From assembly GCF_003202235.1 (NCBI RefSeq), contig NZ_MASU01000008.1, forward strand, positions 62,001-126,000: a DNA stretch of 64,000 nt, read 5' to 3'. Positions 5,649 through 7,619 of this stretch are shown here, piece by piece. The position numbers and the translations under genes are program-made. This DNA is from Prauserella flavalba. Lineage in GTDB: Bacteria > Actinomycetota > Actinomycetes > Mycobacteriales > Pseudonocardiaceae. Position 1 is the stretch's first letter, and each line of letters begins with the position of its first letter. The notes beneath the pieces are model-generated. The model did not search any database and was not told the DNA's origin. It saw only the letters and a list, made by a program, of their open reading frames with translations.

Positions 5649-5677
5649 TTGACACTACATCGAACATGTGTTCGAAT
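5649..5677 (+). promoter_or_regulatory. LexA (SOS) box within a promoter
   Basis: TCGAACATGTGTTCGA at 5660-5675 is a perfect 16-bp palindrome that matches the mycobacterial/actinobacterial LexA consensus TCGAAC-N4-GTTCGA. It sits inside a promoter: TTGACA at 5649-5654, a 17-bp spacer and TCGAAT at 5672-5677 as a fair -10. Transcription would start at about the GTG of the next gene (5685), so the mRNA is probably leaderless. LexA bound here would cover the spacer and -10, so the downstream gene should be induced by DNA damage. Confidence 0.88.
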
Positions 5678-5684
5678 CAAGCCT

Positions 5685-7619
5685 GTGAGATGGGATGGCC
5701 AGCGAGCCGACGGGAACGCCGAGCAGGCGCTGCTCGGGCTGTCCGGGCTGATCCGCTCCGTGCGGTCACCGGACTTCTCCGGCGTGACCTTTCACGAGGT
5801 CCACGCCCGCTCGGTGCTGAACAAGGTGCCGGACGCCTCGCGCGTGCCGTTCCGGTGGACCGTCAACCCGTACCGGGGCTGCTCTCACGCGTGTACCTAC
5901 TGCCTCGCGGGGGAGACGCCGGTCCTGCTGGCGAACGGCCGGACGAAACCGCTGGCCGAACTCGAGCTCGGCGAGCAGATCTACGGCACCCGCCTGGAGG
6001 GCGGTTACCGGCGCTACGTGCCGACGCGGGTGCTCGCGCACTGGTCCACGGTCAAGCCCGCCTACCGGATCACGCTGGAGGACGGCACGAGCCTCGTCGC
6101 CAGCGGTGACCACCGGTTCCTCACCAACCGCGGCTGGAAGCACGTCACCGGAGCGCAGCACGGAGCGGCGCGCAGGCCTTACCTCACGACCGGCAACAAG
6201 CTCATGGGAGTGGGTGGCTTCGCCGTCCCGCCGGAACGATCGCGCGCGTATCGCGAGGGTTATCTGCAGGGGATCGGGGCCGGACGGGAACCGGCCGACG
6301 GTGAGGCGCGGGACCGGATCCGGTCGTTCTCGCGGGGGCACGGCGGGCCCAGGGATTCCGCCGTGCCGGTGGCGCCGGAGGAGGACTGGCAGAAGGGCTT
6401 CCTCGCCGGCCTCTACGACGCCGAGGGCAGCCACTCGCGAGGCATCGTCCGGATCGCGAACCTGGCGCCGCACGTACTCGACACGGCCCGTCTCGCGCTG
6501 AAGCGCTTCGACTTCGTGCACGTCGTCGAGGACCCTGGCCGGGCCAGCGGTCTGCGCGTGCTGCGGCTCTCGGGCGGGCTCGCCGAGCGGCTGCGGTTCT
6601 TCCACACCACCGACCCCGCGGTCACCCGCAAACGCACCATCGACGGGCTCGCGATCAAGTCGGCGGCGCGACTCGGGGTGATGTCCGTCGAGCCGCTGGG
6701 AGTGGAGCGGCCGCTGTTCGACATCACCACGGGCACGGGCGACTTCATCGCCGACGGGGTGGTGAGCCACAACTGCTTCGCGCGCAACACCCACACCTAC
6801 CTCGACCTCGACGCGGGCCGGGACTTCGACACCCAGGTGGTCGTGAAGGTCAACGCGCCCGAGGTCCTCGCGGCCCAGGTCCAGCGCCCGAGCTGGAAGC
6901 GTGAGCACGTCGCGATGGGCACGAACACCGACCCGTACCAGCGCGCCGAAGGCAAGTACGAGCTGATGCCGCGCATCATCACGGAACTGGCCGGCTCGGG
7001 CACACCCTTCTCGATCCTCACCAAGGGCACGGTGCTCGCCAGGGACCTGCCCCTGCTGCGCGCGGTGAGCGGGGACGTCTCCGTGGGCCTCGGGGTCTCG
7101 ATCGCGCTGCTGGACCGCGACCTGCAGAGCAGGCTCGAACCAGGCACACCGAGCCCGAGGGCGCGGCTGGCGCTCGTACGGAAGGCGCGGGAGGCGGGAC
7201 TGCCCTGCGGGGTCTTCCTCGCGCCGGTACTGCCGGGGCTCACCGACTCCACCGAGGCGCTCGAGAGCCTCTTGGCGGAGGTGGCCGAAGTAGGAGCCAC
7301 GGGCGTCACGGTGATCCCGCTGCACCTGCGGCCGGGAGCCCGGGAGTGGTTCGCGCGGTGGCTGTCAGAGCAGTATCCGGACCTCGTGCCGCGCTACCGG
7401 CAGCTGTACGCGCGGGGCAGCTATGTCAACGCGGCATACCGGAGATGGCTGTCGGCGCGTGTCACGCCGTTGCTGCGCCGGTACGGGCTCGATTCCCGGT
7501 CCGGCGGTGAGGAGCGTGGCGTGCCAGGGGATGAGGAAGGCGGCTGGCCGGAGGGCAGCATGCCGCGCGGGGCGAGTGAGCCGGCCCGGACGAAGGGAGA
7601 CCAGATGACGCTGCTTTAG
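5685..7619 (+). CDS. Rv2578c/SplB-type radical SAM protein, LexA-regulated, interrupted by an intein
   Basis: The 644-residue precursor contains an Rv2578c-type radical SAM protein (COG1533, the spore photoproduct lyase group) split by a 291-residue intein. The N-extein is residues 1-72 and ends in GCSHACTY; the C-extein starts at Cys364 with [13 protein letters not shown]. Joined, they give CSHACTYC, the CxxxCxxC motif for the 4Fe-4S cluster, and a 353-residue protein. Further family signatures are [30 protein letters not shown] and SILTKGT. The start is the GTG at 5685 ([10 protein letters not shown]), just behind the LexA box, since relatives begin with MRW; an upstream TTG at 5649 falls in the promoter. 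The protein ends in DQMTLL, which resembles a beta-clamp-binding peptide (QxxLF). The biochemical role of this family is unknown; a DNA damage function is inferred from the LexA box. Confidence 0.9.
5901..6773 (+). other. intein with a reduced LAGLIDADG-type insertion
   Basis: The segment starts with Cys1 ([13 protein letters not shown], splicing block A), has a block B-like region with [12 protein letters not shown], and ends with the block F/G residues [11 protein letters not shown] followed by Cys+1. These are the residues needed for class 1 splicing: Cys1, block B His, terminal His-Asn and Cys+1. Between blocks B and F lies a shortened homing endonuclease region. Its second motif, [10 protein letters not shown], keeps the acidic residue, whereas the first, GYLQGIGAG, has Ala where the catalytic Asp is expected, and the motifs are only about 60 residues apart. 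Splicing therefore looks intact but DNA cleavage is probably lost. Confidence 0.9.

Follow-up and report, generated by a model that had tools for sequence, protein, structure and literature searches.

A class 1 intein with a probably inactive homing endonuclease at the third cluster cysteine of an Rv2578c-family radical SAM gene in Prauserella flavalba and its relatives

A gene for a radical SAM protein of the Rv2578c family in Prauserella flavalba is split, exactly at the third cysteine of its CxxxCxxC cluster motif, by a class 1 intein. The reading that we favour, at a probability of about 0.75, is that this intein is of homing origin, that its LAGLIDADG endonuclease has decayed, and that it is tolerated as a spontaneously splicing passenger in an enzyme made from a LexA-type promoter, with a possible sensitivity to oxidation as a side effect. 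The precursor is very probably inactive as an enzyme, because the place of its third cluster cysteine is taken by Cys1 of the intein and the remainder of the enzyme follows only after the intein. An acyl shift at Cys1, transfer to Cys+1 and cyclisation of Asn291, steps that would normally run spontaneously, would then restore the cluster motif. The intein would be found at a cluster cysteine because its endonuclease recognised the conserved DNA of the motif, and because only exact excision removes it. A side effect of this site would perhaps be a disulfide between Cys70 (position -3) and Cys1, which under oxidation might pause splicing reversibly.

The window, that is, the whole 64-kb stretch of DNA analysed, holds the gene on its forward strand (5685..7619, +) as a single uninterrupted frame of 644 amino acids, from a GTG start codon at 5685 to a TAG stop codon at 7617-7619. 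The N-extein of 72 residues (5685..5900, +) contains the first two cluster cysteines, Cys66 (-7) and Cys70 (-3), and ends in Tyr72 (-1). The intein (5901..6773, +) has 291 residues, from Cys73, its Cys1, to His290-Asn291, and the C-extein, with the radical SAM core and the stop codon (6774..7619, +), opens with the Cys+1 codon at 6774-6776; this Cys+1 is predicted to be the third cluster cysteine once the protein is spliced, to a product of 353 residues. The original prediction had placed the intein exactly at the third cysteine, which is borne out to the base, and had noted that precursor and product both show a complete CxxxCxxC motif, which is literally true of the sequence. When the intein is removed in silico, N-extein and Cys+1 together make CSHACTYC, the pattern seen in the intein-free alleles (70 loci), and PF04055 (radical SAM) scores above its cut-off.

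That intein-bearing Rv2578c families exist had also been stated beforehand, rightly: by its profile match the protein is of an already catalogued kind, the intein-containing Rv2578c family radical SAM protein of NCBIfam (NF038136; 866.4 bits, E 1.1e-260, cut-off 700, with a query that lacked the start residue; 867.4 bits in the profile search of the whole genome). The match covers the whole protein, with the intein inside the profile, and the P. flavalba protein differs from that family in nothing beyond its sequence, with an intein of 291 residues and a decayed endonuclease motif. The intein scored above the cut-off of TIGR01445 intein_Nterm and below that of PF14890 Intein_splicing (the query for the intein alone also lacked its last Asn). 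Throughout the 8.09-Mb assembly there was one intein_Nterm match, which is the intein at 5901-6773, and one match to the Rv2578c family, all 14 candidates having been scored. The nearest named relative found was Prauserella endophytica, 92% identical.

The residues expected of a class 1 intein (Cys1, block B His, block F Asp, penultimate His, terminal Asn and Cys+1) are all in place. Block B (VASGDHRF, 6096..6119, +) has SxxH instead of TxxH and includes the invariant His71, and among the 125 distinct homologous inteins this block is S/G-x-D/E-H-like, not TxxH; blocks F and G form the end of the intein (6717..6773, +). C1, H71, D274, H290, N291 and C+1 are identical in 125/125 distinct inteins, and so is the Tyr at -1. 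The dN/dS of the splicing domain ranges from 0.09 to 0.43 in 19 congener groups and is 0.13 in the genus of P. flavalba, where that of the extein is 0.11. From this conservation we infer that the intein is splicing-competent; in the literature searched, mostly without subscription journals, no report on the splicing of an intein of the NF038136 type was found. A coupling between residue -2 and the presence of the intein (Thr or Ser in 76/109 intein rows and 15/67 intein-free rows) was considered and rejected after a sign test on independent pairs (median p 0.25).

The same observations bear on the alternative that the intein is dead and the gene a pseudogene, which we hold to be very improbable: the frame is intact, the splicing residues are invariant, and both dN/dS values for the genus are low. 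In its favour are three relatives with frameshifted inteins (L149, L152 and L155), 45 of 390 genomes of the family without a match at E <= 1e-60, and the suggestion, in the available text of a study of Streptomyces ambofaciens, that loss of the orthologue costs that organism little (PMC12924846). The three frameshifted loci all belong to one genus (g266) and have the N- and C-terminal parts of the intein in different frames; they are either broken alleles or sequencing errors.

Homologues were collected in a search of the phylum (396 genomes, 212 with a match at E <= 0.001 and 14 over the NF038136 cut-off) and in one of the family (390 genomes, 345 with a match at E <= 1e-60 and 225 over that cut-off). 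The 209 loci read comprised 129 with an intein (125 distinct inteins), 70 without, and 10 with no assignable allele. A survey of the insertion point in homologues had been named as a check on the prediction, and it agreed with it: the intein lies at the third cysteine in 129/129 assigned intein-bearing loci, a figure conditional on the motif, since the allele script demands C...C..C. Loci were moreover chosen by their match to a model built for the third-cysteine site, and mostly three candidates were scored per genome, so that inteins elsewhere in the gene were possibly missed. In seven of the 10 unassigned loci, inspection of the separate pieces again places the intein start at the third cysteine: four of these are cut by integrative elements (L093, L136, L138 and L150), and three have the frameshifted inteins described above. 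Of the other three, one (L178) is a frameshifted intein-free allele, and two (L148 and L151) consist of the C-terminal part alone on its contig. The set of 192 rows used below omits five duplicates or paralogues (L191, L196, L197, L199 and L201) and two loci with short C-exteins (L160 and L179); the omission of 16 near-identical rows left 176 rows for the extein tree, 172 of them different (L063/L119, L065/L161 and L066/L163 are identical). Two of the omitted loci, L196 (genome G437) and L197 (G485), lie in genomes that carry the intein in the main gene; each is an additional copy, without an intein, of a related radical SAM gene (CFARPTHTRLGL).

Active LAGLIDADG homing inteins carry an acidic residue in both motifs. 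In P. flavalba the first LAGLIDADG-like motif (GYLQGIGAG, 6258..6284, +) is followed by Arg where active-type homologues have Asp, as it is in two congeners (L054 and L055), and the second (6396..6428, +) keeps its acidic residue, with PF14528 scoring at about its cut-off. The endonuclease is probably dead, because of this Arg and because the two motifs stand 46 residues apart, compared with 83-112 in acid-bearing homologues. Acid-bearing inteins, of at least 330 residues (334-365 aa) and with the acid at the tenth position of a first motif of the GYLCGMIRGDG type, made up 32/192 rows. Another 70 rows, P. flavalba included, were classed as decayed (248-345 aa) by a rule of our own, namely that the first-motif acid is missing or the intein is shorter than 330 residues; 18 of these 70, not including P. 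flavalba or its two congeners, keep the acid and are shorter, and activity may persist in part of this group. Mini-inteins of 143-166 aa accounted for 23 rows and intein-free alleles for 67.

The distribution of these states is mainly that of a mobile element. On the 176-row extein tree, which is blind to the difference between gain and loss and on which long branches that meet were flagged, the presence or absence of the intein changes at least 25 times, as against 45-62 times in 200 shuffles of the labels; among the 124 rows of the family it changes 21 times. Two pairs, all of their members in one genus, join an allele with a mini-intein of 143 aa to a nearly identical intein-free one: L130/L092 (exteins 95.8% identical, pairing SH-aLRT 97%) and L085/L131 (95.2%, 88%). 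Mini-inteins of 143 aa are unable to home by themselves, and exact loss of the intein is the simplest reading of such pairs. Identity of the inteins and identity of the exteins are loosely related (Spearman 0.29 over 7626 non-independent pairs). Furthermore, a homologous intein is found at the same cysteine in seven divergent loci (L021-L027, on an extein branch of 2.33), and L022 and L025 (2/7 scanned) score above the cut-off of NF033668 PA0069, a different family of radical SAM proteins. These two proteins share with that of P. flavalba the cysteine of insertion and a homologous intein, and differ from it in family and in retaining the first-motif acid. Between P. flavalba and L025 the exteins are 34% and the intein splicing domains 72% identical, and for the 12 inter-genus pairs listed as most discordant, identity is 32-36% in the extein and 69-76% in the splicing domain. 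These comparisons suggest that the intein was transferred across radical SAM families, between Rv2578c-type and PA0069-type proteins. The insertion site lies within rank 15 of 302 nine-residue stretches ordered by conservation, and a tendency of inteins to insert next to invariant residues has been noted earlier (PMC5050341). The intein was also searched in phage records, with no match at E 1e-5. Site and mobility pattern are in our view ordinary homing biology, for which no switch is needed.

Part of the evidence sits less easily with a passenger. The dN/dS of the endonuclease part is below 1 wherever a usable value was obtained (0.13-0.54, 13 groups; 0.34 in the genus of P. flavalba), and this part has one constant length within several genera, so that it may keep a role; such values are not expected of a pure relic and may leave room for a benefit. 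In two genera all the rows read carry HEN-less inteins (g241, 4/4, and g259, 3/3), which a benefit would explain equally well.

The promoter of the gene carries an SOS (LexA-type) box, TCGAACATGTGTTCGA (5660..5675, +), with 0 mismatches and 9 bases 5' of the start codon. The window holds no other perfect site, and the 8.09-Mb assembly has 11 in all, with 0 for the reversed pattern; a lexA locus of the same assembly has a site with one mismatch. A box with at most two mismatches precedes 139/140 loci of the family, with or without the intein, and 176/189 of the homologous loci with enough flank: 70/70 with decayed inteins, 22/22 with mini-inteins, 21/30 with acid-bearing inteins and 63/67 without an intein. 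The 13 loci without a box include 3/3 of family f5, at a guess streptomycete-like, and 6/7 of family f19. Of the full-length downstream pieces taken as controls, two had a box (one or more of the controls fell short of full length and were scored as misses). The designation of the locus as a DNA damage gene is supported as far as the promoter goes. A consensus box that is conserved in orthologues is what is expected of a LexA regulon member, and LexA would be predicted to bind here. The LexA motif of Streptomyces venezuelae is given as tCGAAC-N4-GNNCGa, and a radical SAM gene of that species, vnz_31145, is reported to have a LexA peak and to be induced about 20-fold by mitomycin (PMC9380542); to judge from the numbering, we would guess that it is SVEN_6313, named as the Rv2578c orthologue in S. 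venezuelae in the available text of PMC12924846. Two other perfect boxes in the P. flavalba genome lie just upstream of an SbcD gene (L225) and 20 bases upstream of the reading frame of dnaB, the replicative helicase (L221).

As to function, the enzyme is possibly SplB-like, with a putative role in DNA repair. A splB predicted to be SOS-regulated is described in alpha- and beta-Proteobacteria (PMC3323433), and a link of the orthologue to DNA repair is called speculative in the portion available of PMC12924846. Sequence similarity to SplB is weak (E 0.28-0.85 for the PDB SplB chains; E 7.7e-4 for TIGR04070 with the C-extein of L022). An AlphaFold2 model of the intein-free protein L064, built from five sequences, was weak (mean pLDDT 62.2, below 50 for residues 61-97, the cysteine motif); in a search with its overall fold, SplB entries took ranks 1-3 (best E 6.5e-6, TM 0.40-0.45), not far ahead of other radical SAM enzymes. 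The contig of L064 is labelled Candidatus Melainabacteria, probably through a binning error, and holds an actinobacterial-type Rv2578c gene whose product is 68% identical to the P. flavalba protein in alignment.

The position of the intein invites the idea, raised in the original prediction, that splicing is itself a switch. In its redox form, the Cys70-Cys1 disulfide would hold the precursor in an oxidised cell until the cytosol is reduced, and the intein would be kept for that purpose, an oxygen-sensitive enzyme being made only when it is able to keep its cluster. The idea is chemically sound, and it is not new, having been published for a different intein in a comparable position. A redox block of splicing is plausible because Cys70 stands at -3 to Cys1, as reported for the intein of Pyrococcus abyssi MoaA (Callahan et al. 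2011) and for a trap engineered into the Ssp DnaE intein, which a Cys-3/Cys1 disulfide blocks (PMC3922620, PMC10663303); Cys70 and Cys73 supply the pair of cysteines that a MoaA-type trap needs. MoaA is itself described as a radical SAM enzyme (PMC5352715). Its intein thus has, like that of P. flavalba, a radical SAM host and a Cys-3 able to pair with Cys1, a Cys-3 that we infer to be the second cysteine of CxxxCxxC, and protection from oxidation has been proposed for it in the text available; it differs in being archaeal, in residing in a different enzyme, and in that the trap is reported there, whereas in P. flavalba it would be a prediction from the sequence. Oxidation is likewise reported to block splicing of the Mycobacterium smegmatis DnaBi1 intein (PMC6195587), also actinobacterial, although according to the accessible part of that source it belongs to class 3, has a helicase as host, and is blocked through an internal disulfide, Cys48-Cys118. 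Cys-3 and Cys1 occur together in 129/129 assigned intein loci, but the radical SAM motif sets Cys-3 and the allele script requires it, so this conservation is uninformative. Purifying selection on the splicing domain and the persistence of HEN-less inteins in some genera also favour a retained switch. Against it are the many changes of intein state, the mini-inteins with near-identical intein-free relatives, the transfer of the intein across families, and an SOS box that is the same without the intein, and we consider it unlikely. Still broader, and in our judgement quite unlikely, is the proposal that insertion at the third CxxxCxxC cysteine automatically creates a Cys-3/Cys1 redox trap, so that transcription under SOS control and maturation held back by oxidation form a two-key control in hundreds of Actinobacteria; were it true, the active enzyme would need both DNA damage and a reducing cytosol, and the persistence of HEN-less inteins would be accounted for.

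The other form of the switch, in which the precursor binds [4Fe-4S] or iron through Cys66, Cys70 and Cys1 and splicing is thereby blocked or triggered, seems to us scarcely credible. The CxxxCxxC motif is formally complete in the precursor. However, inteins hold Cys1 in their Hint active site, and the bond that is cut is the amide of this residue; Cys1 must occupy that site here, and it is the C-extein that carries the radical SAM core. An AlphaFold2 model of the precursor, built from 10 sequences, was too poor for geometry (mean pLDDT 51.2, junction <50). Between passenger and regulator, the family provides a natural experiment: at one cluster cysteine, and with the same SOS promoter, the intein is full-length, decayed, reduced to a mini-intein or missing, and there are close relatives that lack it. 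A redox effect, if found, would carry what is reported for MoaA over to a gene that is common in Actinobacteria; if there were none, it could be argued that trapping of the MoaA type is a by-product of the site.

The boundary between intein and C-extein appears in a further role in four genomes of three genera (G438, G616, G618 and G713), in which the gene is cut exactly at this junction. A group II intron or other Rfam RNA had been considered at the odd C-exteins and was rejected, with no match at E 0.1; these C-exteins are cut by integrative elements. The junction elements are located at L216:1380-15218, on L217 and L218 (G618), on L220 and L093 (G438), and on L219 and L150 (G713); the insert measures about 13.8 kb in G616 and about 22.2 kb in G618, and its ends are on different contigs in G438 and G713. 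A gene for a large serine recombinase (Resolvase and Recombinase domains) lies at the intein-side end in G616, G618 and G713, the three scanned. The accessible text of PMC12924846 gives the Rv2578c orthologue gene as the attB of phage Samy in Streptomyces; in the literature searched, mostly without subscription journals, an intein junction as attB was not found. Half of the attachment site would here be intein DNA. The attL ends read CACAA(C/T)TG and the attR ends ACAACTG (TTGGCTG in G713), and joining the ends gives a dyad in G616 (reached by 0 of 500 shuffles), a less clear one in G618 (16) and G438 (36), and none in G713 (275).
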